NCBI RefSeq assembly: GCF_011046245.1
Contig: NZ_CP049245.1
Coordinates: 124,001-188,000 of the forward strand
Direction: 5' to 3'
Source of the DNA: Allorhizobium pseudoryzae
GTDB lineage: Bacteria; Pseudomonadota; Alphaproteobacteria; Rhizobiales; Rhizobiaceae
DNA: 64,000 nt
The notes beneath the pieces were generated by a model. That model did no database searches and was not told where the DNA came from. It saw nothing but the letters and a program-made list of their open reading frames with translations. The position numbers and the translations under genes were made by a program. Below are positions 14,703-35,979 of this stretch, piece by piece. Each line of letters opens with the position of its first letter. The first letter of the stretch is position 1.

Positions 14703-14814
14703 CATAGCGCTTTGTACGACCACTGTCACCGCGGACCGCAAGGCTGCATCGCCCTTTGGGCCTTGCAGGCTGTCCGTTTGCGCGTGACCAACAAAACATG
14801 TGAGGGAACCAGAT

Positions 14815-16820: not shown

Positions 16821-16827
16821 TCGATCC

Positions 16828-18761: not shown

Positions 18762-18787
18762 CCGCGACCGGGCCTGACCGGTTGCGG
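18762..18787 (+). terminator. Stem-loop after the ABC operon
   Basis: CCGCGACCGG and CCGGTTGCGG can pair over 10 bp (one G-U) with a 6-nt loop, 15 bp after the binding-protein stop. No T-run follows, so it may be a weak terminator or a 3'-stabilising hairpin. Confidence 0.4.
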
Positions 18788-18838
18788 TGCCTCCTGGCCT
18801 TGAGGCCCGTCCCTGGACGACTTTCGAAGGAGCGGCGT

Positions 18839-19531
18839 ATGTCCCAAAACGTCTTTCTCGTATCACAGGATGCCGAAATTTCCATTCTGCTTGCGCATGT
18901 GCTCACTGCGCATGGCTATGTGATGACCCCCTTGAGCATCACCGGAGAGCATAGCGAATTGTCCTGGACCGGCGCCGATGCCATCCTGCTTGATAGCCAC
19001 AACACACTGGACGCCGCACTTGCCCTTTGCCGCACCATAAAAACCACGCAGACGTCGAAGGATATACCGATCATCGCGCTGATCCGTGCTTGCAACGAGC
19101 ATCATTTTCTTGAATTCAAGCAGGCAGGCGTCAGCGAATGCCTCGTTCGACCGGTATCCCCCGAGGTCATTATCGCATGCCTTCGTCGCGTTCTTGATGC
19201 CGATACCCCTAAACTGACGGTTTCCCGCAAGAACGATGTCCTTGCGATCGGTGATATCAAACTCCACCGAAGCTCTCGTGCTCTTCTATCTGCCGGCTCC
19301 GTTTTCTACCTCAGTCCGACCGAATACCGCATTCTGACGCACCTGATGGCCAATGCGGGAAGGGTATCATCGCGGTCCGAACTTATTTCCGCTGCCTGGC
19401 CCAGCGGAATCCATGTCGAAGGACGCACAGTCGATGTACATGTCGGGCGGCTCAGGCGCCTGCTCGAACAAGCCTCCGGAGAAAAGATGATCCGGACGAT
19501 CCGTTCAGCTGGCTTTATATTTGATGTTTGA
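18839..19531 (+). CDS. Winged-helix regulator with receiver-like domain (orphan)
   Basis: 230 aa: receiver-like domain (about 1-120) and OmpR-type winged helix (about 130-228: LSPTEYRILTHLMANAGRVSSRSEL, TVDVHVGRLRRLLEQ, IRTIRSAGFIF). It keeps the phosphoacceptor-like Asp (ADAILLDSHN) but the conserved Lys reads LVRPVSPE and the acidic pair is weak (FLVSQDAE). AAGGAG precedes the ATG at 18839, favouring it over 18782. No kinase is adjacent. It mirrors the regulator at 9263 in design, so the two may be distant paralogues bracketing the same cluster. It could equally control the enzyme/LuxR genes that follow at 19651. Confidence 0.8.
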   Translation: MSQNVFLVSQDAEISILLAHVLTAHGYVMTPLSITGEHSELSWTGADAILLDSHNTLDAALALCRTIKTTQTSKDIPIIALIRACNEHHFLEFKQAGVSECLVRPVSPEVIIACLRRVLDADTPKLTVSRKNDVLAIGDIKLHRSSRALLSAGSVFYLSPTEYRILTHLMANAGRVSSRSELISAAWPSGIHVEGRTVDVHVGRLRRLLEQASGEKMIRTIRSAGFIFDV

Positions 19532-19562: not shown

Positions 19563-19650
19563 AGATTCACAAAACCTTCTCAGCTGCTTCGTTGTCATAA
19601 TCTGCCGTCTGGCGTGTCATCGCATTATTCCGAAGTGATGGAGTGGTGTG

Positions 19651-20910
19651 ATGATAAACGCGTCCGACAGGCAGTTTCACGAGCAATCTCTTCAGTCTTT
19701 CCGCAATACCGGCACGATGATCGATGTCGCAGGCACCAGCTTCGATGCGGCTCATTTCCGGGGCATCATGGCGCTATATGCGGCGCCGGGTGTCGGTCGG
19801 TCCGTTCGTCTGGCCCATAATGGTCAAGACGCGATCGACTTTGTCCGGTGCTCGTATCTCGGTCTTGATAATCATCCGGCAATCGTTGAGGGCGCTGCAA
19901 AGGCGGTGTTGGACGACGGGACGCTTCATTGGTCGTGCGCGCGCACGCGTCTCAACTTTCGTCGTCTAGGGGACGTTGAGGATAAACTTTCCGATCTGTT
20001 CGGGGCCCGGGCCTTGACATTCACCACCGTGCTGGCCGCCAACATGAGCGCACTCCCCCTGATTGCGTCGGGGCATCTGACCGGTGGACAAAGGCCAGTC
20101 ATGGTTTTTGATCGCCTCGCTCATGCAACCCTCGCCCATCATAAGGGGGTTGTCGCGCAGGAGACGCGCGTGGAAACAATCGCACATAACGATTTGGCTC
20201 GCCTCAAGGAGATCTGCCGCGACAATGCCCGGGTGGCTTATGTTTGCGATGGCATCTATTCCATGGGCGGCCAGGCTCCGATCGCAGCTTTGCGGGACCT
20301 GCAGAACCGTTACGGTCTGTTTTTGTATATTGATGATGCCCATGGTGTCTCTCTATTCGGACCTCAAGGCGAGGGGTACGCACGCAGCCAGATCAATGAC
20401 ATCGGTGACCGCACGATAATCGCCTCGTCTCTGGGAAAGGGTTTCGGCGCTTCGGGCGGCGTCCTGTTACTCGGGTCTGCCGGGCAGGAGCTTTTGTTCC
20501 GGCGCTTTGCGATTGCGCATGCGTTTTCCGCATCTTTGAACACCGCTGCACTTGGCGCTGTGGCTGCGTCCGCAAATATTCATCGTTCACCAGAGCTTGC
20601 CCTGCGGCAGAACCGTCTGGCGGCAAATGTCGCGCTCCTCGACGAACTCATTCCGAGCGACTTTGCGGGACAACCCTTCCCCATCCGAATGTTTCCGATC
20701 GGCGACGAACTGCTCACGATCAATACGGCGCGGGAGCTTCTCCAACGCGGCTTTTACGTTTCCGCCGTCTTTTTCCCGACCGTTGCCCGCGGCAAGGCGG
20801 GTCTGCGCGTCTGCCTAACCGCCGACCATACCGAAGAGCAGCTGCGTGGATTGGCCGGCGCCTTTGCTGACATCAATGCAGGTCTCATCGGAACCGACCC
20901 GTCGATATGA
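19651..20910 (+). CDS. PLP-dependent alpha-oxoamine synthase (KBL/BioF/CqsA-like)
   Basis: 419 aa fold-type I aminotransferase of the alpha-oxoamine synthase group, which condenses an acyl-CoA with an amino acid (glycine, alanine, serine) or SAM. Diagnostic features: CSYLGLDNHPAIVEGAAKAV (about 70-90), the cofactor Asp/His in LYIDDAHGVSLFG (about 230) and the PLP Lys in IASSLGKGFGASGG (about 265). CqsA, the Vibrio CAI-1 autoinducer synthase, belongs to this group, as do KBL and BioF. The translated stop overlaps the LuxR start by 4 nt, so enzyme and regulator are co-translated, which suggests the product is a signal. GGAG precedes the ATG at 19651. Family membership is firm; the signalling role is inference. 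Confidence 0.85.
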   Translation: MINASDRQFHEQSLQSFRNTGTMIDVAGTSFDAAHFRGIMALYAAPGVGRSVRLAHNGQDAIDFVRCSYLGLDNHPAIVEGAAKAVLDDGTLHWSCARTRLNFRRLGDVEDKLSDLFGARALTFTTVLAANMSALPLIASGHLTGGQRPVMVFDRLAHATLAHHKGVVAQETRVETIAHNDLARLKEICRDNARVAYVCDGIYSMGGQAPIAALRDLQNRYGLFLYIDDAHGVSLFGPQGEGYARSQINDIGDRTIIASSLGKGFGASGGVLLLGSAGQELLFRRFAIAHAFSASLNTAALGAVAASANIHRSPELALRQNRLAANVALLDELIPSDFAGQPFPIRMFPIGDELLTINTARELLQRGFYVSAVFFPTVARGKAGLRVCLTADHTEEQLRGLAGAFADINAGLIGTDPSI

Positions 20911-21638
20911 CGATGACCTTGGGGAAAGATATGCTTGATGCCTTGCGCCTGCTCATCGATATGATCGACGCATCCGCTGACGAAACAATGATCCGGTATG
21001 CACTGCGGTCTTTCGTGCGCGCAAACGGCTTCAGCTACTTCGCCTATCTGCAGGCGGATGATGCTTCCTGCCAGTACATCACCAATTTTCCCGAGGACTG
21101 GTTGCGCATCTATCGATCAGATCGCTATGCGGTCATCGATCCGGTTCGGCGCCTCGCAAAGCTCAAGAAATCTCCCTTCCCCTGGCAAACATCCGATTGG
21201 GACGTTTCGGGGAAACCTTCCGAGCTTCGGAAATTTGCCGGTGATGCGAAACGCCACGGCGTACTTTTCGGCGTCACAATTCCGGCTGAGGGAAGCTTCG
21301 GCGCGCATCTGCAGCTTTCGTTCGTCGGCGGAGACAAGGATAAGGTCAGCGCAATTATCCAGGAGCAAGGCAAGGCACTGCAGGCCGTCTTGTCGATCCA
21401 TTACCGTCTGCAACTCGTTCAGACGGCCGCCCGGTCCAAATCAATCCGTCGGCTTTCGCCTCGAGAGCTTTCGTGTCTGCGGTGGTCGATGAAGGGGAAA
21501 TATGCCCACGAGATCGCCATCCTCGCTCACCTTACACCGCGCACGGTCCAGGCCTACCTCGACAGCGCGCGGCAAAAGCTCGGTGCTGCGAACATCCCGC
21601 ACCTGATCTCACTCGCAAAAGATGCGGGTCTCATCTAG
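20907..21638 (+). CDS. LuxR-type quorum-sensing regulator with autoinducer-binding domain
   Basis: 243 aa, the size of TraR/LuxR. The N-terminal autoinducer-binding domain keeps W65, Y69, D78, P79 and W93, matching TraR W57, Y61, D70, P71 and W85 at a constant offset of 8, and the G-x3-G-x-T-I-P stretch (HGVLFGVTIP) for G113. The C-terminal LuxR helix-turn-helix (about 178-243: LSPRELSCLRWSMKGKYAHEIA, LTPRTVQAYLDSARQKLG) is intact. No luxI/traI homologue lies in this window. The start overlaps the oxoamine-synthase stop (ATGA). The likely target is the lux box at 33256 in front of trb and rep. Confidence 0.88.
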   Translation: MTMTLGKDMLDALRLLIDMIDASADETMIRYALRSFVRANGFSYFAYLQADDASCQYITNFPEDWLRIYRSDRYAVIDPVRRLAKLKKSPFPWQTSDWDVSGKPSELRKFAGDAKRHGVLFGVTIPAEGSFGAHLQLSFVGGDKDKVSAIIQEQGKALQAVLSIHYRLQLVQTAARSKSIRRLSPRELSCLRWSMKGKYAHEIAILAHLTPRTVQAYLDSARQKLGAANIPHLISLAKDAGLI

Positions 21639-21773
21639 CGACCGAGCGGGGTAGAGCAACATCGAACCAGCCATGATGCCGGCCGCACGTTGCGATAGGC
21701 GCCAGGGTGGTCAGCATACGCAATCATTGATCATCCCCCGCCTTGACGACCGCGTCTGAAGCGAGAGATATCT

Positions 21774-21793
21774 GACAACAAGTTAGCGTTGTC
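21774..21793. promoter_or_regulatory. 20-bp dyad GACAAC-N8-GTTGTC
   Basis: Perfect 6-bp arms with an 8-nt spacer, the same 6-8-6 geometry as the lux box at 33256 but a different sequence. It lies 71 bp upstream of the acyltransferase start, where an activator site would be expected. May bind the LuxR-type protein or another dimeric regulator. Confidence 0.4.
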
Positions 21794-21864
21794 GTGGAAA
21801 CGCCTGCCAAATTCAGTGTAATCGCCCGTGTTCTATCGCCGGTGCAGTTCATAAAGTGGTCAGT

Positions 21865-23097
21865 ATGCCAGAGTCACGGTTTGAAGCGTTGTGCCACGAT
21901 GATCTGAACACGGTGACCGGTGTTTGGTCGGATTTGGAACGCTCCGGATTTGTGACGCCGTTTCAAAGCCTTCAGTGGATTGAAGTCCTTCTTCGAACTC
22001 TGGCAGGTCTTCCAAATACTAGGTTCTTCGTTGTGGAGGTGCGGGATCGTCATTCGCAGTCACCTTTGATGCTGCTGCCGATGTGCCTCGTTCAGCATCG
22101 GGGCTATCGTGTTGTGGAATTTGCGTCCTTCGACGTTTGTGATCTCAGCATGCCGGTTCTCGCCGGGAATGATGCTCTGGTTGATCCTAAGGATGCAGAA
22201 TATCTGTGGCAGGCCGTTGTTTCGGTGCTGCCGCCTGCCGATCTCATTGAAATTACACAGATTCCCAAGCAGTATCGCGGTCGGGTCAATCCGCTTGCCT
22301 GCGTTCCGGGAACCGTGCCTGCATCTGTGTCGCGCTATGAAGCCAGCATAGAGGGCGACCCGGCCAAGATCGTAGAAGGGCTTGCCAACAGTCAGACCCG
22401 TCGCATCCTCAAGACGTCAAACCGTCGGCTGAGTGAACGTGGCACCGTTCGCTTTGCCGTTGCCGAGACGCGCGAAGATCTCGACCAATTGTTTCCCGTC
22501 ATGTTGGCCCAGCGTCAAGAGCGTTTCCTCGAGCTGGGTCGTTATGACCTTTTGACGCGCTCTGATATCCAAACCTTCTACGACAGTGCAGTGCGCTCCA
22601 GTCTCTCCACCGATGGTCTCGCAAGAATGTGGGCGCTGTTCGTCAATGACGAACCCATTGCCACATGCCTCGGCCTGGTGCACAAGCAGAGCTTTACCTT
22701 ACTTATCATCACAATGGCCGGCGGATCTTGGGCGTCCTGTTCGCCCGGCATCGCACTTCTGTCGAGGATCATTCAATGGTCTGCAGAGCAGGGGCTGACA
22801 CGCATCGACTTTTCCGTCAGCGACGCCTCGTACAAGACCGGACTTGGCGGCCGTCCAGAAGCGATGCTGGAACTGAAACTGCCGGTGACAACGGTAGGAC
22901 GAACTGTGCATGCCGTTGGACGTTCACTTGATGACCTGAAAGCTCGACTAAAGGCGCACCCCGTCTTATTCGCGTTCGCCCGAAAACTCGTACGGTCCGC
23001 CAGGCGTAGTGGGCGACGGATCGGCACTCTTCGGCTCCAATATAAAGGACCAACCCATGTCATTTGGTTCAATATATTGATGCCGTTCTGCCTCTAG
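21865..23097 (+). CDS. GNAT-fold acyltransferase (FemAB/BioF2-like)
   Basis: About 410 aa protein of the double-GNAT type found in FemAB-like and CelD/BcsL-like acyltransferases: ARMWALFVNDEPIATCLGLVHKQSFTLLI and the segment LLSRIIQWSAEQGLTRIDFSVSDASYKTGLGG (about 300-335) are characteristic. These proteins move acyl groups or amino-acyl groups onto small molecules or polymers in the cytoplasm. The gene is 226 bp downstream of luxR in the same direction. In this setting it might modify or make the signal; alternatively it is a polysaccharide-modifying enzyme. A GTG at 21856 is an alternative start. Confidence 0.7.
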   Translation: MPESRFEALCHDDLNTVTGVWSDLERSGFVTPFQSLQWIEVLLRTLAGLPNTRFFVVEVRDRHSQSPLMLLPMCLVQHRGYRVVEFASFDVCDLSMPVLAGNDALVDPKDAEYLWQAVVSVLPPADLIEITQIPKQYRGRVNPLACVPGTVPASVSRYEASIEGDPAKIVEGLANSQTRRILKTSNRRLSERGTVRFAVAETREDLDQLFPVMLAQRQERFLELGRYDLLTRSDIQTFYDSAVRSSLSTDGLARMWALFVNDEPIATCLGLVHKQSFTLLIITMAGGSWASCSPGIALLSRIIQWSAEQGLTRIDFSVSDASYKTGLGGRPEAMLELKLPVTTVGRTVHAVGRSLDDLKARLKAHPVLFAFARKLVRSARRSGRRIGTLRLQYKGPTHVIWFNILMPFCL

Positions 23098-23531
23098 TGG
23101 AGGCATAAAGGCCAAGCCCGCACTCTCGTGTGAAACCCGCCGACGTTGGTAACAAGGGTGAACTGACGAAAGTCGGTGGCCATAAGTGGCACCGTTCAGG
23201 ACTGGACGCTTTCACATTCGATACGGACGGCCATCTTAGATAGGACGTCTATACGGTCTCGTCGCTGCGTCCCGGGTGATGCAAGGTCGACATTCCTTTT
23301 GACTCGAAAGTGTTTCCTCCTGTGAAGGAAGCTTGCCCAATATCCGGTGTAGTTTTGTTATTCGGACCTTGACAGGCGGGGAAGGCTGCTTTTGCGCGGA
23401 TGTCTGCCAGCAGGCATGGACCATATGTATGGGCGCTGCAGGTACCTTGATTGCAGCCTTGGACGGTCCCACGGGATCTGTGGCGGGGCTCAATCACCCG
23501 TCAAGAACCCTCTCGGCGCGTGAGTGACTTT
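23098..23531. other. Intergenic region between acyltransferase and trbI (434 bp)
   Basis: Two operons converge here. I see no gene: short ORFs are mutually overlapping and without motifs. A short hairpin (TTCCT...AGGAA, about 23309-23328) may help to end one of the transcripts. No insertion-sequence end seen. Confidence 0.4.
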
Positions 23532-24830
23532 CTAGTTTCGATACGCAGCTGGGAAGATAATATCCTGATCAACCAACACGTTGAACTGGAAGCCTGGCCG
23601 GATCCTGATCGTTGGCTGCACATTGAGATTTTTTGAAATTGTCTGCTCGGCCACCCGACCAAAGCTCTCGGCAAAATTTCGCCGCGCGGCATCAGATGCT
23701 GTATCCTGCGTGGCCAAGGTCGAACTCCCGGGCAAGGACATGTCAATCCCCGTGCCGATTATCGCCACGAGAGCGGCAGACCCGAATGTCCGCCAGAGAT
23801 GGCGATCGACCTTGTCTCTGAACCCGCCATAGCCTTCGGCATCCGTGCCGGACATGCCGCCGATCTGAAGCGTCGAGCCATTTGGGAAGATCAGGTCGGT
23901 CCAGACGACCAACACGCGCTCCTGTCCAAAAGAGAGCTTGGAATCGTAGCGACCAAACAGCTTGGCGCCCTGAGGGATAAGCAGCCGGTAGCCGGTTGCG
24001 CTGTCGTAAACGTTCTGGCTGACCTGCGCCGAAATCCTGCCGGGAAGATCGGAGTTCAGGCCCGTGATCATCGTGGCAGGAATGACGGATCCACGCTTCA
24101 ACTCATAGCGCGAGAATTGCCGCACCACTTGGTTCGGTAAGTAGCCAAGCTCCTTGATGTCCTGGTTGAAAAACTCCTCCTTTGAGCTCTGGTCATTTTG
24201 ATCGACACTCTCGCCGAGCAAGCCGGATTTCATTGCCGCGCTATAGAGATCGGATGCACTGTGCGTTGTGGCGTTTGGCAATGGGCGGGCGTCGCCTCTC
24301 GTTTCAGAGGTGCTCCTTTGGATCTCGGAGACGTCTACCTTGAGCGGAGAATCAAGGGCCGTCGCGCGCGCCTGCAGGCGCGCCATCCTCTGACGCTGCG
24401 CTTCGCGGAGAATCTGCTCGTCCTGTTCCCGTTTCAGCCGCGCCTTCCACTCGGCTTCCGGTTCGAGTCGAGATCGCCTTTCCCTGTGGACCTCATTCTG
24501 TCGCTCCACGGCGGTCTCTCTTACCGGCTCGCGCTCGACAAGGGTCGGCGTCGGTTGAAACACCTCACGACTCTCCGGCTCGCCGATGATCCCGTCCGAC
24601 ACACCTCGCTTCAGCTGATCGCCAAATGTTGTCGCCGGTGACGCGGAGGTGCTGTCGCGCTCGTTTCCACGGTTGAAGGAAAGACCGCGCCACGACAGGC
24701 CGACGATCACGATGCCGAAGAACAATACGATGATGACGATCACGACAACAATCGGCAGGCGATTGAGGCGTCGCATGCTTTGTTGATCGTCAGCATTACC
24801 CGCTGTCCCGAGCTGGAGCGATTGAACCAT
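23532..24830 (-). CDS. trbI: Conjugal transfer protein TrbI (VirB10-like)
   Basis: 432 aa, equal in length to TrbI of Ti plasmids. It has a short cytoplasmic N-terminus, one inner-membrane helix (LPIVVVIVIIVLFFGIVIVGL, about 30-50), a proline- and Arg/Glu-rich periplasmic arm and the C-terminal beta-barrel domain (LIPQGAKLFGRYDSKLSFGQERVLVVWTDLIFPNG). It spans the envelope and links the inner and outer membrane parts of the type IV secretion channel. The ATG at 24830 has GGGGAG upstream; the frame continues further back but only into trbH. Last gene of the trb operon. Confidence 0.93.
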   Translation of the reverse strand: MVQSLQLGTAGNADDQQSMRRLNRLPIVVVIVIIVLFFGIVIVGLSWRGLSFNRGNERDSTSASPATTFGDQLKRGVSDGIIGEPESREVFQPTPTLVEREPVRETAVERQNEVHRERRSRLEPEAEWKARLKREQDEQILREAQRQRMARLQARATALDSPLKVDVSEIQRSTSETRGDARPLPNATTHSASDLYSAAMKSGLLGESVDQNDQSSKEEFFNQDIKELGYLPNQVVRQFSRYELKRGSVIPATMITGLNSDLPGRISAQVSQNVYDSATGYRLLIPQGAKLFGRYDSKLSFGQERVLVVWTDLIFPNGSTLQIGGMSGTDAEGYGGFRDKVDRHLWRTFGSAALVAIIGTGIDMSLPGSSTLATQDTASDAARRNFAESFGRVAEQTISKNLNVQPTIRIRPGFQFNVLVDQDIIFPAAYRN

Positions 24831-24844
24831 GGTCTCCCCTCCCC

Positions 24845-25282
24845 TCAGTTTCGCTGCATGATCGAAAGTGGACTGGCCGGCGTTGCGCCCGTGGATGTTG
24901 CGGTATAGGCACGCCCGAGCGCGAAGGCCGGTGTGCTGACACGCGCCAGGACATGTCCGTCGAAGCTGTCGATCGACCACTCGATTTGCACCGGTTTGTG
25001 ATCCTTGGGCACCTTGCCGTCGACGATGACCGTGTATCCCCATCCCTTCAGCGCGGCCTCAAGGGCAGCGGCATACTCGGATGTATCCTTGGCCATTTTC
25101 AGTGTTGTTGTGCCAGTCTGCCCGACCTGTTCGGCAAGCCGGCCAGCCATGTCGCCAGCGATCGCACTTGCGCTGGCACCCGTGACCGCAATCGGTGTGG
25201 AACTTGTCATCAGCGTCTCATCTGCAGTCTGGCAACCGGAAAGGATGGCAGTGATTATGACGGTGGCGATGGTCTTCTTCAT
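24845..25282 (-). CDS. trbH: Conjugal transfer lipoprotein TrbH
   Basis: 145 aa with a lipoprotein signal peptide (MKKTIATVIITAILSGC; lipobox L-S-G-C, Cys 17). The mature part is a small alpha/beta domain. TrbH sits in the outer-membrane part of the mating apparatus; it is conserved in position between trbG and trbI. Four bp separate it from trbG. Confidence 0.9.
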   Translation of the reverse strand: MKKTIATVIITAILSGCQTADETLMTSSTPIAVTGASASAIAGDMAGRLAEQVGQTGTTTLKMAKDTSEYAAALEAALKGWGYTVIVDGKVPKDHKPVQIEWSIDSFDGHVLARVSTPAFALGRAYTATSTGATPASPLSIMQRN

Positions 25283-25285
25283 CAG

Positions 25286-26098
25286 TCAACCTCCCCGCCG
25301 GATCGTGATTTTCTGCTGACGCCAACCAGTCCCGGACACAAGCACGCCCTTGTCGATGGCGTAGTCGACAATCATCATGTCGTTCTTCATGCGGTAGTTG
25401 ACGATACGATTCCGGCCGCCGCTGACCACGAACAGCACTGGAGCGTCCTGCCCGGAAATAGATCGGGGAAACTGGATGTAGGTTTTGGTTCCGTCGGAAT
25501 AGACGCGCTTCGGCCGCCACGAGGCGTGACCACTGACCGAATAGGAGAAGTTCAGTTTGTCCGGAGCAGTTCCGGGAATTCCTCCGGTCTCGAGCCGGGC
25601 ATTGATGTCGGCCAGCTTGGTAGACACATCTTCCGGGTACTCAAACCCGATCCTCGCCATGTACTGACTGGGGTGGGATTTGAGCTGAATGTGGTAAGTC
25701 CGCCTTGACGTCGTAACGACCATGGACGTGACGAGACCTGCCTCGGACGGTTTCACGATCAGGTGGATCGCCTGCCCACCGGTTGCTCCCGACGTTGCCG
25801 GTTCGACTTTCCAACGGACGGTGTCACCGACAAGCACATCGCGGACGATCTCGCCGCCTTGCAGCTCGATGTCGCAGACCTGAAGCGGCGAGCACACTAC
25901 GGAGGGCTGGGTCTCGCCGAAGAGAAAGATCACTTTCCCGTCTGGTCCGGTCGTCACCAGACCTGGCGTTCCCCGCCACTTCCGCGAGATGTTGGTCCCC
26001 TTCACCTCGTTCGACGTCATGCTCTGTGCGACTGCGCAATCCGCAAGGACGAGTCCTGCCATGCAGCCGACGGCCGCGATCAATCCTGTTCTGTGCAT
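25286..26098 (-). CDS. trbG: Conjugal transfer protein TrbG (VirB9-like)
   Basis: 270 aa periplasmic/outer-membrane component. A signal peptide ([26 protein letters not shown]) is followed by the VirB9/CagX fold, with VFDDGTKT-like [14 protein letters not shown] and [15 protein letters not shown] near 190-215. It forms the outer ring of the type IV secretion core complex with TrbI and TrbH. AGGGGAA lies before the ATG at 26098; the longer reading to 26149 would run into trbF. Confidence 0.92.
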
Positions 26099-26114
26099 GT
26101 GAATTCCCCTGCCC

Positions 26115-26777
26115 TTAAAGCTGCGCGGTCCAGTCGAAGTCCTGGACATAAAGACCGATCGGATTGAGACGGATGATCGCCTCGTCCTGTGGCGCGGTCA
26201 GCGCGACCGTCGCGATGCCACGAAACCGCCTTGTGCCGGTCTCCTTGCCCTTGCGGTCGCGTTCATACTCGGTCCAGTCGATCTGATAGGTCTGGTTGGA
26301 GAGCGCGACGATGTTGTTGACCTCGATGGCGACGGTCGATGTCTTGGCCTTTTCGAACGGCGAGTTGCCGCGGAACCAGGCATTAATCTTCTGGGTCGCG
26401 GGATCGGATGTCCTGAGAAGCGCATAGGTCCGGTCGATATATTGCTTCTGCACGACAGCGTCGGGCGTGATCGACTTCAGGCTGGTGATGAAGTTGCCGA
26501 GGCTCGCGCGGACAACGCGGGCGTCGGCATACTCGATTTGCTGGGGGAAGCCGGCCGTTGCCGACGTCCCAAGCTTGTCGACCTCGACGATGTAGGGCAC
26601 GAGCTTGACCTGCGTGCTGAGATACAGGGCATAGGTGAAGCCGATCACGGCCATGGAAAGTCCGAGAATGCCGACGATCCGCCACGCGCGCGCGGCCTGG
26701 ACGTAGGATCCATATCGTTCCGTCCATTCCTGCCGCGCGGCAAGGTAGGGACTGTCGGGCGGCCGGTTTGCTGCCAT
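26115..26777 (-). CDS. trbF: Conjugal transfer protein TrbF (VirB8-like)
   Basis: 220 aa bitopic inner-membrane protein: one helix near residues 33-53 ([20 protein letters not shown]) and a periplasmic VirB8-type NTF2-like domain ([41 protein letters not shown]). It acts as an assembly factor of the mating bridge. The N-terminal [14 protein letters not shown] signature appears as [11 protein letters not shown]. Confidence 0.93.
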
Positions 26778-26798
26778 CGCGTGTCGCCTTTCTGATGA

Positions 26799-27977
26799 TT
26801 ACTTGTCGTTTCGTTCTGGCGGCGTCCTGGGGCCGCTTTGTCCGGTTCGGCTCTGATCGAGCTTGGCGTTGGCAAGCCCCATGATCGAACCGGCATAGGC
26901 TCCGGGCGAACCGATTGCCTTTTCCTTGGCAGCCGAACCCGCAGCCTTTCCAGCCGACCCGATCCCGGCGCCCATGCCGCGAAGCGCTGCCGCGGCGAAT
27001 GAGGATCCTGCTGCGCGCGCGGATTGAGCTGCTGCTGCGCCGGCTCCGACAGCACCTGCGGCCAGCGACACCGCGCCAAGTGCAAAGGATGCGGCCTGCC
27101 CACTGTGGCGGATGCTTTCCATGCCGCCCGTGACCGATGCCCCTTGCACAACACCTTGAATGATATTGGGGACGTACATGGCGACAATGAAGACCACGAC
27201 CGCGATCCCGGCGATCGCCAATGCGGTCTGAAACTGGTCCCCGACGTCGGGCCGGTTAGCTAGGCCCGTCAAGACTTCGGAACCGATCCGGGAAATCATG
27301 ACCAACGCCATCAGTTTCATGCCAACCGAGAAAGCATAGATCAGGTACCGGATGGCAAAGTCCTTGGTGAAGGACGAGCCTCCCAATCCGAGCATGATCA
27401 TGCCGGCGAGCAGACCGAGATACATCTCGACCATCACGGATACGAAGATCGCGGCAACGAGCGAGAATGCGATCACCGTTACGACCATCGCAAAGGCCGC
27501 CGAAATTGCGAGCGCGTTGTCCTCGAACAGCCCGAATTGCACCTTCTCTGACATCTTGGTCGCGACGGTTAGACCTGCGTTGAACACATCGGCTGGCGAA
27601 GCCGTGCCTCCACCAGCGCCGATCTGAAACAGGCTATCGACGACCGCCTTCGCGAAGGTCGGACCCTGCGCGAGAACGAAAGCGAAGAAGCCCACGAACA
27701 TGATGCGCCGGACCAGTTCAGCGAACCAGCTGTCAAGGGATGCGGCCTGAAGCGCCAGCCAGACGGCGGCAATACCGATTTCGATCCCTGCGAGAATCCA
27801 GAATAGAGATCTCGCCGCATCCATGACGGTGCTCTCCCAACCCTTCGCGGCAGTGGTGATCTCGTTCTGGAGGGCTGTCAGGACCGACCCCTCCTGCGCA
27901 ATTGCGGGCTGGACCGACACGGCGATGAATGCGACGAGCATCGCAAGGCCCTTGATCGTTTTGAGCTCAGAGGTCAT
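26799..27977 (-). CDS. trbL: Conjugal transfer protein TrbL (VirB6-like)
   Basis: About 392 aa polytopic inner-membrane protein with a signal-like start, at least five helices between about 60 and 270, and an Ala/Gly-rich C-terminal tail (SFAAAALRGMGAGIGSAGKAAGS), all typical of TrbL. It forms part of the substrate path across the inner membrane. The start at 27977 overlaps the trbK stop; 27983 (two residues longer) is close and possible. Confidence 0.92.
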   Translation of the reverse strand: MTSELKTIKGLAMLVAFIAVSVQPAIAQEGSVLTALQNEITTAAKGWESTVMDAARSLFWILAGIEIGIAAVWLALQAASLDSWFAELVRRIMFVGFFAFVLAQGPTFAKAVVDSLFQIGAGGGTASPADVFNAGLTVATKMSEKVQFGLFEDNALAISAAFAMVVTVIAFSLVAAIFVSVMVEMYLGLLAGMIMLGLGGSSFTKDFAIRYLIYAFSVGMKLMALVMISRIGSEVLTGLANRPDVGDQFQTALAIAGIAVVVFIVAMYVPNIIQGVVQGASVTGGMESIRHSGQAASFALGAVSLAAGAVGAGAAAAQSARAAGSSFAAAALRGMGAGIGSAGKAAGSAAKEKAIGSPGAYAGSIMGLANAKLDQSRTGQSGPRTPPERNDK

Positions 27978-28158
27978 TCGCATACCACTCGATCTTCATC
28001 TTCTCGCCGCCCGACGTCGGATACTCCTTCGTCGACCCAAAGAATTTTTCGTGCCGTTCATGCGCCACCTGTCTCTGGGAGATCAGGAACCACAGGCCTG
28101 TTGCACCGAATGAGATGATTACGGCGGTCATGGCCAGGATCAGCTTTGTTCTCACCAT
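27967..28158 (-). CDS. trbK: Entry-exclusion protein TrbK
   Basis: 63 aa with one N-terminal hydrophobic segment (LILAMTAVIISFGATGLWFLI) and a short polar tail, in the place of trbK between trbJ and trbL. TrbK proteins block redundant conjugation between cells already holding the plasmid. The tail (R-x-E-x-FF-x-ST ... TSGGEKMKIEW) is nearly the same as the C-terminus of the preceding TrbJ. It overlaps trbJ by 7 nt and trbL by about 11 nt. Confidence 0.82.
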   Translation of the reverse strand: MVRTKLILAMTAVIISFGATGLWFLISQRQVAHERHEKFFGSTKEYPTSGGEKMKIEWYANDL

Positions 28159-28955
28159 TCCACTTTCATTTTCTCGCCGCCGGATGTTGAGGGCGCAGTT
28201 GATTTGAAGAATGCCTCACGGCGGGCCTGCGTGAGGTCCTTGTCCGTCTGCTCGGTCTGCAGCCAGGTTCCCATCATCGTCATCTGCTGGGAGACAAGAC
28301 CGCGCAGCTTCTGCATCTGAGACACCTGTTGAGCGGCGATCTGGTGTCCGACCTGGAGAGCCTTCATCTGGCCGTCGGCAGACTCCGACATCGATCGCAG
28401 CGAACGCATCGTGCCCTCCTCGGTATCGAACTGATCCGCTGTCAGGCTTGCTGCCTTCAGCGTGCTGCCGATCGTGTCCCGGTTCGTATCCGACCAGGAC
28501 TGGTAGGTGCTCGAGAAGGATTCGGCATTGGGCAGATTGGTCTTCAGGTCCGCATAGCTCTTGAAACGCTGCTGAAGGACGTCGTCGGCATTGCCCATCG
28601 AAAACGAGATGCTCTGCCCTTGATCAACGATGTTGCGCAGACGGTTGAGATCGCTCTCGACCTGGCCCCAGATATGATCAGGAAGCTGCGTCGTGTTCTG
28701 TAGCATGTTCTCGTAAATCTTCAGCTGGTTCTGGATCTGCTCGGCGAGTTGCGTGATCTGCGTCAGCTGGTTATCGACCTGCAGGCCAGAGCTTTTCAGA
28801 AGGTCAATGAGCTGCGCATTGTTGGCAAGCTGCGTCCATTCGGTGGCAGCGCCCGTTACAGATCCCGCATGGGCGGAAGCAATCGGCAACAGCGCGATGA
28901 CCGCAGTCATCGTTGCAACGATCCAATTAGTGGACGTTGAGGTGCGACCTGGCAT
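28152..28955 (-). CDS. trbJ: Conjugal transfer protein TrbJ (VirB5-like)
   Basis: 267 aa secreted protein with a signal peptide (IVATMTAVIALLPIASAHA-GS) and a long helical body (LTQITQLAEQIQNQLKIYENML), as in VirB5/TrbJ minor pilins. The ATG at 28955 lies inside the end of trbE, the usual arrangement; a longer reading to 28997 is less likely. Its last residues, TSGGEKMKVEW, match the tail of TrbK. Confidence 0.9.
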   Translation of the reverse strand: MPGRTSTSTNWIVATMTAVIALLPIASAHAGSVTGAATEWTQLANNAQLIDLLKSSGLQVDNQLTQITQLAEQIQNQLKIYENMLQNTTQLPDHIWGQVESDLNRLRNIVDQGQSISFSMGNADDVLQQRFKSYADLKTNLPNAESFSSTYQSWSDTNRDTIGSTLKAASLTADQFDTEEGTMRSLRSMSESADGQMKALQVGHQIAAQQVSQMQKLRGLVSQQMTMMGTWLQTEQTDKDLTQARREAFFKSTAPSTSGGEKMKVEW

Positions 28956-31383
28956 CGCGAACTCCTCTCGATTGAAGCCAATGGGCAGGCCATTCATGGC
29001 CGTATTCCGCCTTCAGCGCGCGGATCCGCTTCAGATCCTCCTTTCCAGAAGCGCCCACGAAGCTCAGCGTCACCGGCCCGAGCGACATGTCAAAGAGCCG
29101 CCGTCCGTCTGGCGTGGCGACGTAGTATTCGCGTTTCGGGATGGCGCCCGAGACAATCTCAATCTGGCGCTCGTTGAACCCGATCCGCTCATAAAACTCG
29201 CGCGTCCCCGGCTCGCGCGCGGCACCATTCGGGAGGCAGATCTTGGTCGGGCAGGATTCCTTGAGCACGTCGATAATGCCGGAGCGTTCGGCGTCGGAGA
29301 TGGATTGTGTCGCCAGGACAACGGCGCAATTGGCCTTGCGGAGCACCTTCAGCCATTCCCTGATCTTGTCGCGAAACACCGCATGCCCGAGCATCAGCCA
29401 GGCCTCGTCGAGGAGGATGAGGCTAGGCGAGCCGTCCAGCCGTTTCTCGATCCGGTGGAAGAGATAGGTAAGGACGGGCACCAGATTACGCTCGCCCATG
29501 TTCATGAGCTGCTCGATCTCGAAGCACTGAAACGCCCGAAGCGTCAGGCCGTCCTCTTCCGCGTCAAGAAGCTGACCCATAGGGCCGTCGACTGTGTAGT
29601 GATGGAGCGCATCCTTGATTTCGCGCATCTGCACGCCGCTGACAAAGTCCGACAGCGACTTTCCAGGCGCCGTCGCCATCAGCCCGATCTGGCGGGAGAT
29701 CGCATTACGGTGATCAGGCGTGATGATGACGCCTTGAAGCGCGACGAGCATTTCGATCCACTCGGTTGCCCAAGCTCGATCTCCGTCTGTCGAAAGATCG
29801 AACAGCGGGCAGAACGCCAGTGCTCTGCCCTCCCCGTTTTGGTCATCGCCGATCTCATAATGATCGCCGCCGGCAGCGAGCGTCAGAGGAAGGAGCGAAT
29901 TGCCCTTGTCGAAGGCAAAGATTTGCGCGAACTCGTAACGACGGAATTGCGCTGCGATCAAAGCGAGAAGGGTCGACTTCCCCGAGCCCGTCGGTCCGAA
30001 GATCAAGGTGTGGCCAACGTCGTCGACATGCAGGTTCAGGCGGAACGGCGTTGAACCCGACGCGACCTGCATCAGCGGCGGCGCGTTCGGCGGATAGAAC
30101 GGGCACGGCGCCACCGGGTTGCCCGACCATACCGTGTTCAGCGGGACGAGGTCCGCCAGATTGCTGGTATTGATCAGCGGCTCGCGGATATTGGCGTACC
30201 AGTTACCCGGTAGGCTTCCGAGAAACGCATCTGTTGCGTTCAGGGTCTCGATGCGAGCTCCGAAGCCTTCGGCCTGGACCAGCCGGCGTATGGCTTCGGC
30301 CTTTTCCTGTAACGCTTCTCTGTGGTGGTCGAAGAGGATGACCACAGGCGTGTAATAGCCATAGGCGACAAGCTGGGACGATGCCTGAGCGATCGCATCC
30401 TCGGTTTCGACGACCATGGTCATGGCATCCTGATCGACCGATCCATTTTGCGTCTGGAAGAGTTGATCGAAGAAGGGACGGACCTTCTGCTGCCACTTCT
30501 TTCGTGTGCGCTCGAGCTTCTGGCGTGCCTCTTCTGCGTCTAGGAAGATGAAGCGCGACGACCAGCGATAGGTCAGTGGCATCAGATCGAGATTGTTGAG
30601 GATACCGGGCCAGCTCTCGGCCGGCAGGCCATCGATGGAAACGACCGCTAGAAACCGGTTCTCAACCTTTGGCGTCAGGCCATGCTCCAGCTCCGCCGTC
30701 GCGAGCCAGTCGAGGTACATCGGGACCTCCGGCAAGCGGACTGGATGGCTCTCCCCCGTAATGCAAAATCGAACAAACTGCAGGAGATCGTCATAGCGCG
30801 CGAGCCGCTCCCTTCCCCTCTCGCGGACTTCGCGGGTCTGCATGCGGGCGATCGACAGGGTATTGGCAAGGTATTGTTCGATTTCCCGGATGGCGTTGCG
30901 GAACATGAACAGGACGGTGTCGGCATAGGATTTTTTCCGGCTCTCCTCGTCCGAATAGATGTACTTGGTGAGCGCCGTCTTCTTCGACTCAATCGGTCGG
31001 TAGGTCAGGATAATGGCATGTTTGCTTTCGAAATGCCCCTGCTCCCGCTGGAAATGAGTTCTGCGCTCGATATCGATGGCACGGGTGACAGGGTCCGGAA
31101 AATGGCACTGGTCTGGGGACGGATAGTCAACCGTCGGCACCCGGACCGCTTCGACCTGGATCATCCACCCCGTGCCCAAGCGCGACAGGATTGCATTGAT
31201 CTGCCGCGACAACTCGTTGCGCTCGTAATCGGTGGCGCTTTCGGAGTCCGGGCCTGCGAAGTACCAGCCAGCCATCAGGCTTCCGTCCTTCAAGAGCAGG
31301 ACGCCGTTGTCGACCAGGCCGGCATAGGGAACGAGATCGGCGAATGAGGGACCGGTCACGCGGAAACGTTTGAGGGCAACCAT
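28927..31383 (-). CDS. trbE: Conjugal transfer ATPase TrbE (VirB4-like)
   Basis: 818 aa, the usual TrbE length. It starts MVALKRFR-x-GPSFADLVPYAG, as in Ti-plasmid TrbE. N-terminal VirB4 domain to about 400, then the ATPase domain with Walker A GPTGSGKSTLLA (about 470) and Walker B SLILLDEAWLMLG (about 660), followed by VLATQSISDAERSG. It powers pilus assembly and DNA transfer at the inner membrane. The ATG at 31383 has an AAAGGTG site and leaves 10 nt after trbD; the 25 extra upstream residues would overlap trbD. Confidence 0.95.
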   Translation of the reverse strand: MVALKRFRVTGPSFADLVPYAGLVDNGVLLLKDGSLMAGWYFAGPDSESATDYERNELSRQINAILSRLGTGWMIQVEAVRVPTVDYPSPDQCHFPDPVTRAIDIERRTHFQREQGHFESKHAIILTYRPIESKKTALTKYIYSDEESRKKSYADTVLFMFRNAIREIEQYLANTLSIARMQTREVRERGRERLARYDDLLQFVRFCITGESHPVRLPEVPMYLDWLATAELEHGLTPKVENRFLAVVSIDGLPAESWPGILNNLDLMPLTYRWSSRFIFLDAEEARQKLERTRKKWQQKVRPFFDQLFQTQNGSVDQDAMTMVVETEDAIAQASSQLVAYGYYTPVVILFDHHREALQEKAEAIRRLVQAEGFGARIETLNATDAFLGSLPGNWYANIREPLINTSNLADLVPLNTVWSGNPVAPCPFYPPNAPPLMQVASGSTPFRLNLHVDDVGHTLIFGPTGSGKSTLLALIAAQFRRYEFAQIFAFDKGNSLLPLTLAAGGDHYEIGDDQNGEGRALAFCPLFDLSTDGDRAWATEWIEMLVALQGVIITPDHRNAISRQIGLMATAPGKSLSDFVSGVQMREIKDALHHYTVDGPMGQLLDAEEDGLTLRAFQCFEIEQLMNMGERNLVPVLTYLFHRIEKRLDGSPSLILLDEAWLMLGHAVFRDKIREWLKVLRKANCAVVLATQSISDAERSGIIDVLKESCPTKICLPNGAAREPGTREFYERIGFNERQIEIVSGAIPKREYYVATPDGRRLFDMSLGPVTLSFVGASGKEDLKRIRALKAEYGHEWPAHWLQSRGVRDARSHLNVH

Positions 31384-31393
31384 CGGGACACCT

Positions 31394-31678
31394 TTAGTAT
31401 CTTCGCCACGGCGCGGCTGTTGGCCGGTAGTGGGGTTTGTAGGAAATGTGTCGGGCATAGACCTGCCGCATCAACGGATCGGACTTGGCCATCATGCGAA
31501 GGAGACCGACGATGACGATCCAGACCGCAACACCAAAGAGAGCGGAATACACCGTCAGCACGACGAAGATCAGGATCACGGCCGCAAGCCCGGTGATCAG
31601 CACCAGTTCGCGGTCGGCGCCGATCAAGAGGTTCGGACGCGACAGCGCACGATGGATACGATTGCGGTGGAGGCTCAC
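31394..31678 (-). CDS. trbD: Conjugal transfer protein TrbD (VirB3-like)
   Basis: 94 aa inner-membrane protein. N-terminal [20 protein letters not shown] signature, then hydrophobic segments ([30 protein letters not shown]). It accompanies the pilin and TrbE. The start overlaps the trbC stop by 4 nt. Confidence 0.92.
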
Positions 31679-32052
31679 GATGCCCCCTCCCCTTCCCCGT
31701 CCGAGTTGAGCAACGTGACCTGCTCCGGTGGCAAGCCGATAGACGCTCCGGTGGCGCCAAAGAGACCAACGATCGTTGTCGCACCGAGCAGGATGCCGGC
31801 GACCAGGACGACGTACATGAGCCTGCGAGCGAAATCGTTGAGCTCACCGCCAAAGATCAGCATACCGCCGGCGATCGCAACGGCCGCCAGTGCGATATAG
31901 CCTGCGACCGGACCAGTGATGGATTCCTGGATCTGTTCAAGCGGCCCTTCCCAGGGAAGACTTCCGCCCGAACTGGCGAGAGCTGGCGTCGCAGCGGCGA
32001 ACGCTGCAATCGCGAATGCGGTCATCGTTAAGACTAGCCTTTTAAGCTGCAT
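31675..32052 (-). CDS. trbC: Conjugal transfer pilin TrbC (VirB2-like)
   Basis: About 125 aa prepilin: a signal peptide ([21 protein letters not shown]) and two hydrophobic helices ([20 protein letters not shown] and [22 protein letters not shown]) joined by ELNDFARR. TrbC-type pilins are processed and may be circularised. The ATG at 32052 lies within the end of trbB; the longer frame to 32100 is not needed. Confidence 0.92.
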
Positions 32053-33007
32053 TTCGGCTCTCCTCGGCATAAGATTCCGTCTGGTATCGGCCCCCCGCAA
32101 AGCCGGTGACGTGGACGATGTCGCTGATCCGGCGGCCCTTGGCAGTTCGTTCGATCGAGATGATCACATCGACAGCATCAGCGATGATGGCCTGAATCGG
32201 CTGGTGACTGGCCTCGGCGGTCAGCTGCTCGAGGCGCTGAAGCGCGGAGCGTGCGCTGTTGGCGTGGATTGTTGCCACACCTCCGGGATGACCCGTGTTC
32301 CAGGCTTTTAGCATGGTCAGCGCGGCGCCATCACGCACTTCGCCAACGATGATCCTGTCTGGTCGAAGGCGCATGGTGCTTTTCAAGAGACGTGAAATGT
32401 CCACGCCGTCGCTTGTGTGCAGGCTGACAACGTTGTCGGCACTGCATTGGATTTCTGCGGTGTCCTCGAGGATAATAAGCCGCTCGCGTGGTGAGCGCGC
32501 CGAAATCTCGCTGACGATCGCATTGACGAGCGTCGTCTTGCCCGTACCCGTTCCGCCGCACACGATGATGTTCTTTCGTGCCTGGACTGCATTCCGGATG
32601 GTCTCCGCCTGCGCGTGCGTCATCAATGCGCTGGAAACGTATTCGTCCAAGGCAATGACGCGCGACGCCCTTCTGCGAATGGCAAAGGTCGGCCCGGTCA
32701 CCACAGGAGGCAACAGACCTTCAAAACGATGCCCGCTGATCGGCAATTCGCCCGAAACAATCGGCTGATTTGTATTGACGTCGAAACGAAGCGCGTGTGC
32801 GACCGCTCCGATAATTGTCTCTGCTGCCGTCAACGACAAACATCCGGCATCCTCTATGGCCTTGCCGACACGCTCGATGAATAGCTGGCCGTCGGGATTA
32901 AGCATGATTTCAACGACCTCATCGTCGACAAGTGCGTTGCAAAGCTTTTCTCCAAGCGCCTCATGAAGTTTGCGAACCAACCTGATCTGCGAAAGCCCCC
33001 CAGTCAC
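32042..33007 (-). CDS. trbB: Conjugal transfer ATPase TrbB (VirB11-like)
   Basis: About 321 aa hexameric traffic ATPase. Visible: [29 protein letters not shown], Walker [15 protein letters not shown] (about 160), the Asp box [11 protein letters not shown], Walker B-like [16 protein letters not shown] and the His box [12 protein letters not shown]. The GTG at 33007 has AAGGGGG upstream and gives the length of Ti-plasmid TrbB (323 aa); an in-frame ATG at 33097 would add 30 residues unlike the family. It is first in the trb operon here; on Ti-type plasmids traI precedes it. Confidence 0.93.
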
Positions 33008-33570
33008 ACGAGACCCCCTTTGATGTTGGCGAGCAAAACAGGCGTGGATAGCGAGCCCCCTGAACCCCATGTCGTGAAAATGGCCTCGCATGGACATTCA
33101 AGGCTGGCTCGCTGCGCCAAAGCGGGATGCATGGGCGTTCCTTCCTTTTGTGCCAACACATCCGGTCTTTGAGTGGACGCCATTGCGTGCTGGCCTACTT
33201 GGTGATCGTCAGTTCGGATGCGCAGTCACTTCAACACGGCGTGAAAGCGAGCGGTACCTGTTGAATTCTACAGGTTCGATTCGGGGAAGAATCGGCGAAC
33301 AAAGCGGAACTGGCTCTCTTGCCACCAATCAGGTGGGATAGACCTCTGGGGATTCACAGGAGAACAGGACGGCAACCAGTCCGACGTAGTAGCCTGGTAA
33401 ATATCTGATTCAACGAAGGGAATCGTAAAACGTGCAGGATCACTGGCTCCAACGGCGCGACGGTTGAACCATCCGTTAACGCTAAAGTCCTTGCTGAGGC
33501 TCGAGAATCGGGAATAATAACGGTTAGAGCGTGAAAACAGCCCGAAAATCGTTATCTGAGAGTTTGACCG
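33008..33570. promoter_or_regulatory. Divergent trb/rep control region (563 bp)
   Basis: No gene of traI type or any other convincing ORF is present. The region holds the lux box at 33256-33275, roughly midway (about 250 bp from trbB and 295 bp from repA). On Ti plasmids the same gap contains traI promoter and tra boxes that let TraR raise both conjugation and copy number. The repA-proximal 100 bp is A+T-richer and likely holds the repABC promoter. Confidence 0.6.
33256..33275. promoter_or_regulatory. Lux box (ACCTGT-N8-ACAGGT)
   Basis: A 20-bp dyad with 18 of 20 positions symmetric: arms ACCTGT and ACAGGT around TGAATTCT. The arms are identical to those of the classical Vibrio fischeri lux box. 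It lies between the trb and rep operons and nowhere else that I could find in the window. The natural ligand-bound binder would be the LuxR-type protein at 20907, or another such protein elsewhere in the cell. Confidence 0.75.
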
Positions 33571-34782
33571 ATGACTGCCACAGCAAGTGCGACTGCGAGA
33601 GAGTTGCAAATGCACTTCGAAGATCAGATTCTTGAGCAAGGCGATCTGATCTCAAAAAAGCTGCATCTTCTCAGCATGCAACGATTCCCGCCGAATGCGA
33701 AAAAGAACCTTCGCGCCTTTTCTCTTGCTGAAGTTGCCAATTATGTTGGCGTCTCGCAAAGTACCCTGAAGAAGCTCCATCTTGATGGCAGGGGCCCCGC
33801 TCCTCAAACCTCTGCTTCGGGCAGGCGCAGCTATACGGCTGCGCAGATGCTCGAACTGCGGCAGTATCTCGATACCCATGGTCGTTCTGACAGCCGCATG
33901 TATGTCCCACATCGGCGAAACGGTGAGAAGCTCCAGGTTGTTGCCGTCGTCAACTTCAAGGGAGGCTCAGGCAAGACGACGACCGCGGCCCATCTTGCAC
34001 AATATCTGGCGCTGACCGGTCACAGGGTCCTCGCAATCGATCTCGACCCACAGGCGTCACTTTCGTCTCTTCATGGGTTTCAGCCGGAGCTTGATCAGGT
34101 TCCGTCTCTTTATGATGCTATTCGATACGATAACAACCGTGCACACATCGCCGATATTATTCGCCCGACAAATTTTCCTGGACTGGACATTATTCCTGCC
34201 AACCTCGACCTGCAGGAATACGAATACGACACCCCCCTTGCCATGGCCGACAAGACCACAAATGAGGGTAAAACGTTCTTCACTCGGATGTCGCGTGCCT
34301 TGAAAGATGTCGACGAGCGGTATGATGTGGTCGTGATCGACTGCCCGCCTCAGCTCGGATACCTCACATTGACCGCACTCACCGCAGCGACCAGCGTCTT
34401 GATTACCATCCATCCTCAGATGCTGGATGTCATGTCCATGGGGCAGTTTCTGCTCATGCTCGGCGGCATTTTGAAGCCAATTCGTGCGGCCGGCGCCGAA
34501 GTAAACCTGTCGTGGTACCGTTACTTGATCACGCGTTACGAGCCGACTGATGTCCCCCAAACCCAGATGATGGGTTTCATGACGACGATGTTTCACGAGT
34601 TCATGCTGAAGAACCAAATGTTGAAGTCAACCGCCATATCCGACGCCGGCATAACCAAGCAGACGTTATATGAGGTCGAACGTAGCGCCATGAACCGCGG
34701 AACCTATGACAGAGCCATCGAGTCGCTTGACGCGGTGAACTCAGAAATCGCCGACTTGATCCATCAATCATGGGGCCGATGA
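33571..34782 (+). CDS. repA: Plasmid partition ATPase RepA (ParA-like)
   Basis: 403 aa. N-terminal helix-turn-helix (about 48-100: FSLAEVANYVGVSQSTLKKLHLDGRG) and a ParA-type ATPase with deviant Walker A KGGSGKTTT (130-138), IDLDPQASLSSLHG, and VVVIDCPPQLGYLT. It partitions the plasmid with RepB and represses its own operon. First gene of repABC, with the standard length for the family. Confidence 0.96.
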   Translation: MTATASATARELQMHFEDQILEQGDLISKKLHLLSMQRFPPNAKKNLRAFSLAEVANYVGVSQSTLKKLHLDGRGPAPQTSASGRRSYTAAQMLELRQYLDTHGRSDSRMYVPHRRNGEKLQVVAVVNFKGGSGKTTTAAHLAQYLALTGHRVLAIDLDPQASLSSLHGFQPELDQVPSLYDAIRYDNNRAHIADIIRPTNFPGLDIIPANLDLQEYEYDTPLAMADKTTNEGKTFFTRMSRALKDVDERYDVVVIDCPPQLGYLTLTALTAATSVLITIHPQMLDVMSMGQFLLMLGGILKPIRAAGAEVNLSWYRYLITRYEPTDVPQTQMMGFMTTMFHEFMLKNQMLKSTAISDAGITKQTLYEVERSAMNRGTYDRAIESLDAVNSEIADLIHQSWGR

Positions 34783-34783
34783 G

Positions 34784-34797
34784 TTGTCAGCTGACAA
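34784..34797. repeat. parS-like palindrome in the repA-repB gap
   Basis: TTGTCAGCTGACAA is a perfect 14-bp palindrome starting 1 bp after the repA stop. With flanking bases it fits GTT-N4-GC-N4-AA, one base from the repABC parS consensus (GTT-N4-GC-N4-AAC). RepB is the expected binder. Placement between repA and repB is known for some Ti-type plasmids. Confidence 0.7.
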
Positions 34798-34851
34798 ATT
34801 CGACCTTTTTTTCCATAAAAACAATGCATTGATACGGAACGGAGTGAAGCG

Positions 34852-35826: not shown

Positions 35827-35836
35827 GAACCAAAAG

Positions 35837-35884
35837 AAAAAGGCCCCCAATCGGTCGCCCGTGGAAGCCCTTCTCGTGTCTAGC
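35837..35884 (-). ncRNA. Antisense ctRNA of repABC (inc-alpha)
   Basis: On the minus strand a promoter is visible: TTGACT (35919-35914), 17-nt spacer, GATTCT (35896-35891). The predicted RNA, about 48 nt, ends in a GC-rich stem-loop followed by TTTTTC (A-run at 35837-35841 on the plus strand). This matches the counter-transcribed RNA in the repB-repC gap that lowers RepC synthesis and gives incompatibility. Ends are approximate. Confidence 0.8.
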
Positions 35885-35954
35885 AGCTAGAGAATCGCAT
35901 TTCCCGGAATCATAGTCAAGTGCATTTGGCACCGATTTGGTGAGCAGATTTCTT

Positions 35955-35972
35955 TTGCCTAGAGAAAGGCAA
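35955..35972 (+). promoter_or_regulatory. Hairpin in the repC leader
   Basis: TTGCCT and AGGCAA pair around a 6-nt loop, 7 nt before the repC ATG, covering the likely ribosome site. It fits the usual model in which ctRNA binding to the leader favours a structure that hides the repC start region. Confidence 0.55.
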
Positions 35973-35979
35973 TGAAAGA

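Follow-up and report, generated by a model that had tools for sequence, protein, structure and literature searches.

In the circuit of the type II plasmid pSymA, RctR is the repressor of an enzyme operon next to it, RctC switches on transcription of the antirepressor gene rctB, and the mating-pair genes are repressed by RctA (PMC13274422); the environmental trigger of symbiotic plasmid transfer under rctA/rctB control is described as unknown (PMC13055273, PMC13274422). On group I-C plasmids TraR is essential for transfer and not responsive to acyl-homoserine lactone (AHL) (PMC13055273); how such a TraR is controlled without the AHL synthase TraI is a further question. Ti plasmids offer a third design, in which traR ends opine operons (occ of pTiR10, arc of pTiC58). 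Here we compare these systems with a locus from Allorhizobium pseudoryzae, contained in a 64,000-bp stretch (the window, C5:124001-188000) of C5, a 216,696-bp plasmid in a five-contig genome of 5.38 Mb. In the window a TraR-type LuxR gene follows an alpha-oxoamine synthase gene at the end of a metabolic–regulatory cluster, beside a trb operon that lacks traI. We consider it fairly likely that TraR was captured as the last gene of an rct-type cluster, so that conjugation and plasmid copy number would follow a nutrient.

A scan of GTDB genomes with the synthase returned 127 relatives, and all counts out of 80 refer to the best 80 of these 127 loci, reaching 10 kb. Gene families recurring around the enzyme, in a cluster conserved in Rhizobiales, are response-regulator-like genes (61/80), an aminotransferase (60), a GntR regulator (48), the ATPase of an ABC importer (47), a short-chain dehydrogenase/reductase (SDR; 46), a thiamine pyrophosphate (TPP) enzyme (41), two importer permeases (40 and 36) and a periplasmic binding protein (38), counts that may include paralogues. 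The window carries every one of these families between 9263 and 20910 (Table 1). The complete set occurs in the same order on pAtC58, which shares the importer, GntR regulator, aminotransferase, TPP enzyme, SDR, two response-regulator-like genes and oxoamine synthase. The cluster of Sinorhizobium meliloti ml46 is as in pAtC58 except for an unannotated gap at the TPP position, the TPP family being seen in S. meliloti 4H41, and the response-regulator-like gene behind the SDR has a counterpart in the same place in both S. meliloti and pAtC58. This gene order fits the described circuit, with a repressor adjoining the enzyme operon plus a further activator gene, and we infer that the cluster is the rctR/rctC conjugation-activation circuit of type II plasmids (pSymA, pAtC58).

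The gene behind the synthase sets the window apart from that circuit. On pAtC58 the synthase is followed by a HEPN gene and then by an RctB-like gene (DUF2218-related), presumably rctB (Atu5116), a gene that published work places on pAtC58; on the window plasmid the activator is TraR, not RctB-like, no RctA-like match is found, and the transfer genes are type I tra/trb. RctB-like genes lie behind the enzyme in 19/80 loci, in S. meliloti ml46 and, across the HEPN/nucleotidyltransferase gene, in pAtC58; the family matched 155 plasmid records, with none named RctB among the 60 matches listed. A TraR-type LuxR stands there in six of the 80 loci, on the plasmid of Rhizobium sp. SL42 and in the window, giving eight cases. 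The two genes are 15-61 bp apart in L015, SL42, L018, L052 and L053, and separated by one HEPN gene in L045 and L069. The enzyme–LuxR part of the synteny for which the sequence-only reading of this DNA had proposed a search does recur on trb plasmids, trbB being on the same contig in seven of the eight cases; the contig of the eighth (L018, genome G350) has type I tra genes, with trbB on another contig.

Within 10 kb of the enzyme, a LuxR accompanies type I transfer genes in 3/3 loci and an RctB-like gene accompanies type II genes in 8/8. Two Fisher tests gave p = 0.006 and p = 0.010, both treating related rows as independent; the second, which sets 7/8 LuxR cases against 0/4 controls (L014, L016, L027, L063), is also affected by contig breaks. 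No RctB-like gene was found on the eight TraR-type contigs examined (seven of the eight cases; SL42 over 196 of 352 kb), or in the window's own genome with one query and no positive control. RctA, recognised by homology and adjacency to virB1 on pSymA (as in Table 1 of PMC4053727), had no match on C5 or the other TraR-type contigs examined (SL42 again over 196 of 352 kb); the loci with RctA near the enzyme are L008, L009, L039 and L041. Six LuxR/TraR queries (tblastn) detected no second LuxR above 45 bits on six whole contigs including C5, on 240.0 of the 240.3 kb of contig C6 of G353, or on 196 of the 352 kb of SL42, save one fragment; G351 was outside this search. The SL42 fragment (L125:26587-26718) is 44 residues long, identical to part of the enzyme-linked LuxR, and lies beside a second nucleotidyltransferase/HEPN gene, a partial duplication. 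The window has separate HEPN (7704-8333) and nucleotidyltransferase (8352-8624) reading frames that are fused in pAtC58 (L227:33962-34903), and a relative of the fused gene occurs in 29/80 enzyme loci, sometimes between the enzyme and TraR or the RctB-like gene.

On a tree of the enzyme (84 rows), the LuxR state needs five changes, at least four of them forced by starred branches, and pAtC58, with its RctB-like gene, nests between two TraR pairs. The tree was built by a quick method with Shimodaira–Hasegawa-like approximate likelihood ratio (SH-aLRT) support only; L023 was entered by match coordinates, and L041, labelled ‘other’ on the tree, was later found to have an RctB-like gene. On a tree of LuxR proteins (38 rows), the window protein falls in the pRi-type TraR clade with pRiA4b, Rhizobium etli 8C-3 and pRLa12 (support 100/99) on a long branch, and the other seven enzyme-linked LuxRs group elsewhere, in a clade shared with further TraRs (98/95). 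Because some branches are long, the window's included, its exact placement is unsure. Given the repeated changes of state and the separate LuxR clades, traR was probably captured behind the enzyme more than once. In L006, L007, L010 and L026 (Rhizobium rhizogenes in one case, Mesorhizobium in three) the slot is filled by a LysR regulator, possibly a third output for the cluster.

Judged by its sequence, the window LuxR is the plasmid's TraR. Its PF03472 (78.6 bits) and PF00196 (45 bits) matches are above cutoff, and its best PDB match is TraR (2q0o, 179 bits); it scores 99.7 bits against the NF010444 cutoff of 250, which the pRiA4b TraR also misses (176.5). It was described earlier as the only LuxR in view, beyond the far end of trb, and it is indeed the sole one of the genome's five PF03472 genes on C5. 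Among its 12 nearest relatives in 297 family genomes, seven have both trbI and traM in the short locus, four have one of the two, and one has neither. Two of its nearest relatives, on pRLa12 and pRiA4b, have similar boxes (ACTTGTAGGATCCTACAACT-type) upstream of traI. The window box resembles the pRLa12 box ACTTGTAGGATCCTACAACT, and the recognition helix of the pRLa12 TraR is very similar to that of the window LuxR; no box passed the filter in R. etli 8C-3.

The canonical lux box between trb and rep was correctly recognized: ACCTGTTGAATTCTACAGGT is the sole exact ACCTGT-N8-ACAGGT in the whole genome, and about 3e-5 exact boxes would be expected in the 575-bp trb–rep gap under uniform base composition. 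With up to two mismatches, the window has two sites against 1.07 expected, so the exact, well-placed site alone is meaningful, and since 30 of 2000 shuffles of the gap reach the same palindrome score, it is the match to the lux/tra box that counts, not symmetry alone. Box-like palindromes lie upstream of trb/repA in 3/3 traI-less plasmids, ACCTGTTGAATTCTACAGGT in the window and ACTAGCACATTTGCTAGT in L052 and L053, the last two plasmids being close relatives of each other.

A circuit can be drawn from these parts. The importer would bring in an inducing compound that relieves the GntR (RctR-like) repressor; the response-regulator-like genes would then switch on a putative synthase–traR transcription unit; and TraR would bind the box between trb and repA, raising mating-pair formation and copy number. 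In such a circuit traI could have become dispensable and then been lost, and any AHL still used by TraR would come from other cells. The arrangement joins two known control systems, and there is precedent for cross-wiring: AccR, an opine regulator, has rctB of pAtC58 under its control as well (PMC4231840), and strain 15955 is without rctB, its pAt having traR, traM and traI instead (PMC6778807). As on Ti plasmids, traR here ends a nutrient-type cluster; the cluster is a different one, no known opine gene is assigned in it, and neither traI nor traM was found on C5. The window plasmid is like group I-C pLPU83a in having TraR and no traI, and differs in layout: on pLPU83a traR lies beside rcgA/rcgR, between the DNA transfer (Dtr) and mating-pair formation (Mpf) regions, with traM kept, whereas here traR is behind the oxoamine synthase, with Dtr at 64-72 kb and Mpf at 147-157 kb of C5. 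We came across no account of traR at the end of this cluster in the literature searched, most subscription papers being outside our reach. If RctB on one plasmid class and TraR on the other are both outputs of the same cluster, the trigger of the rct circuit and the control of TraR without TraI become one question, namely what the importer and enzyme set senses. One compound should then induce transfer in both classes, and the slot behind the oxoamine synthase would mark a conjugation activator.

Several observations weigh against the proposal that TraR has taken the place of RctB. The names RctR, RctC and RctB are putative assignments from gene order and published description. Transfer genes of any kind occur within 10 kb in 25/80 loci (six of the 25 with weak VirB4-like matches only, one with a trbI-like match only); the other 55, some of which end at contig ends, have none, and the role of the cluster in metabolism may thus be broader. 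Seven type II loci (L021, L022, L023, L025, L030, L034, L085) have neither an RctB-like gene nor a LuxR behind the enzyme. The window enzyme sits on a long branch (0.65), no LuxR more than 48% identical to the window's was found among the relatives searched, and L119, L123, L141, G349 and G350 yielded no box that passed the filter.

The absence of traI, already remarked in the sequence-only reading, extends beyond the window. The LuxI family (PF00765) has no match across the 5.38-Mb genome, and six traI proteins gave no tblastn match on C5 at E <= 1, so the traI or luxI homologue elsewhere that would have spoken against that reading was not found. The absence is credible because the same model does give matches within the genus: of the 57 genomes searched, this one included, 39 are positive. 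The nine closest DNA relatives of trb are 83-86% identical; in all six annotated records examined, an AHL synthase gene lies directly upstream of trbB, for which reason the window plasmid has probably lost its traI, leaving no recognisable pseudogene. A search for a remnant (tblastn and blastn, six traI regions against window 32900-33600) gave short matches only, the best of those listed being a tblastn match of 24 residues on the wrong strand (E 0.004) and a blastn match in the trbB start. Behind the trbI end, five of the six relatives have a traR–traM pair, and Rhizobium sp. SL42 has none there. A traI-less clade of close trb relatives, suggested by feature names, was rejected, as all six annotated records opened carry traI. 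Of the eight enzyme–LuxR cases, four (SL42, L015, L045 and L069) have traI and one, L018, has it in two pieces; the genomes of the other three, L052, L053 (a metagenome-assembled genome) and the window, lack it. Among these contigs traM was found only on C30 of G354. The two traI pieces beside trbB in the L018 genome (L207:17696-18275, G350 C20) matched separately and look like an intermediate in traI loss.

These losses could also mark a decaying system, in which traI, together with traM and a canonical traR if ever present, has gone, LuxR would stand beside the cluster by chance, and transfer would be either dead or constitutive. ‘Degraded QS systems’ (QS, quorum sensing) have been described for rhizobial plasmids (PMC13133039), and searches of C5 found neither traI nor traM. 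C5 does carry repABC, trb and traG/D/C/A/F/B/H (tra at C5:64164-72495). We regard decay as unlikely: traA is open over 1113 codons and the trb genes are likewise open, TraRs of several lineages occur in this same arrangement, and all three traI-less plasmids have box-like palindromes upstream of trb/repA.

Whether the retained TraR still senses AHL bears on a further reading, compatible with capture by the cluster, in which TraR eavesdrops as a solo on AHL from other plasmids or neighbours and the cluster sets its level. The AHL pocket had been thought fully kept as far as its residues could be checked; of six positions that we take to be AHL contacts of TraR (Y53, W57, Y61, D70, W85 and T129), W57, Y61, D70 and W85 are identical, and Y53 and T129 are replaced by F and S (4/6). 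With G113 also conserved, TraR the best structural match and LuxI in 39/57 genomes of the genus, eavesdropping is possible, although we rate it below even chances: the pocket has Y53F and T129S, the host genome has no LuxI, and the group I-C TraR is essential without responding to AHL (PMC13055273), so that a traI-less TraR can be essential without an AHL response. The TraR-type regulators of two traI-less trb contigs, L053 (L053:11222-11956) and L052 (L052:11271-11963), both have Y61F, and L053 has D70A as well; they are natural candidates for AHL-independent TraR. On these residues the window LuxR, where F53 and S129 stand beside the four conserved contacts, may still bind AHL; for L053, with F61 and A70, such binding is doubtful.

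The sequence-only reading had gone further, proposing that an AHL synthase had been exchanged for an oxoamine-type signal synthase of the CqsA class. The enzyme is an alpha-oxoamine synthase, as stated; it belongs to NF005697 (514.6 bits), scores 72.6 bits against the CqsA/LqsA model PRK07179 (cutoff 428), and is closest among solved structures to Alb29 (PDB 8i7u, 8xhk, 8xhd, 8xha), with CqsA far down the list. It is no ordinary KBL or BioF either, lying far below the curated cutoffs of both and of ALAS and SPT. CqsA and LqsA share its superfamily at a large family distance, and their receptors, CqsS and LqsS, are histidine kinases, whereas the receptor here is TraR. The translational coupling reported for the pair is in doubt: the genes adjoin, but an overlap at ATGA is uncertain, since the TraR alignment favours the ATG at 20931, which leaves a gap of 20 bp after the enzyme.

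That the synthase makes an aminoketone or hydroxyketone ligand for the adjoining LuxR, forming a non-LuxI quorum system, now seems very improbable. The link to traI-less trb held in part: traI is absent in three of the eight adjacent enzyme–TraR cases and split in one, AHL-contact residues drift on two traI-less plasmids (Y61F in L052 and L053, D70A in L053), and the cluster SDR could perhaps reduce a ketone. Four of the eight plasmids (SL42, L015, L045, L069) carry the pair and traI together, so the enzyme is no substitute for traI and the proposed exchange is not supported. The enzyme is conserved together with an importer and catabolic-type enzymes, and its next gene is often RctB-like and elsewhere TraR, LysR or unrelated; this setting does not favour a signal synthase, and the four contact residues kept in the window LuxR point the same way. 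A narrower version, in which the synthase and SDR of traI-less plasmids would make a non-AHL signal from an imported amino compound for a TraR drifted from AHL binding, is likewise very improbable.

Table 1. Features of the window discussed in the text (window coordinates).
Feature	Position	Strand	Evidence
OmpR-type response-regulator-like gene behind SDR, position expected for RctC	9263..9970	-	open reading frame; 31% identity to the other response regulator (tblastn)
SDR oxidoreductase	9984..10766	-	PF00106; conserved cluster member
Acetolactate-synthase-like TPP enzyme, NF004772	10763..12499	-	930.8 bits, cutoff 673
Class III aminotransferase, related to glutamate-1-semialdehyde aminomutase	12475..13893	-	PF00202; NF000818 311.8 bits, below cutoff 398
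GntR/FCD regulator, putatively RctR-like by position	13925..14608	-	PF00392 and PF07729
ABC importer: ATPase, two permeases, periplasmic binding protein	14800..18746	+	conserved with synthase
OmpR/PhoB-type response-regulator-like gene	18782..19531	+	PF00486 above cutoff; no PF00072 at E<=0.001
Alpha-oxoamine synthase, NF005697 (PRK07505), Alb29-like	19648..20910	+	514.6 bits, cutoff 342
TraR-type LuxR regulator	20907..21638 (start 20907 or 20931)	+	PF03472 and PF00196, PDB 2q0o, tree
PF13480 acetyltransferase (GNAT)	21856..23097	+	neighbour, probably outside system
trb mating-pair operon, trbB to trbI, without traI	23532..33097	-	profile and DNA matches
lux/tra box ACCTGTTGAATTCTACAGGT	33256..33275	.	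between trb and repA
repABC	33571..37218	+	profile matches

The GNAT gene does follow the LuxR gene, as had been noted. As a partner in the system it was rejected: at E <= 1e-3 none of the 80 enzyme loci contains a relative of it, and another GNAT family was found in 12 of them. In many Bradyrhizobium loci (L062-L076) the genes after the enzyme encode an SDR and a family III CoA-transferase, with no importer match in the locus; by gene content the same enzyme stands there in another metabolic context.

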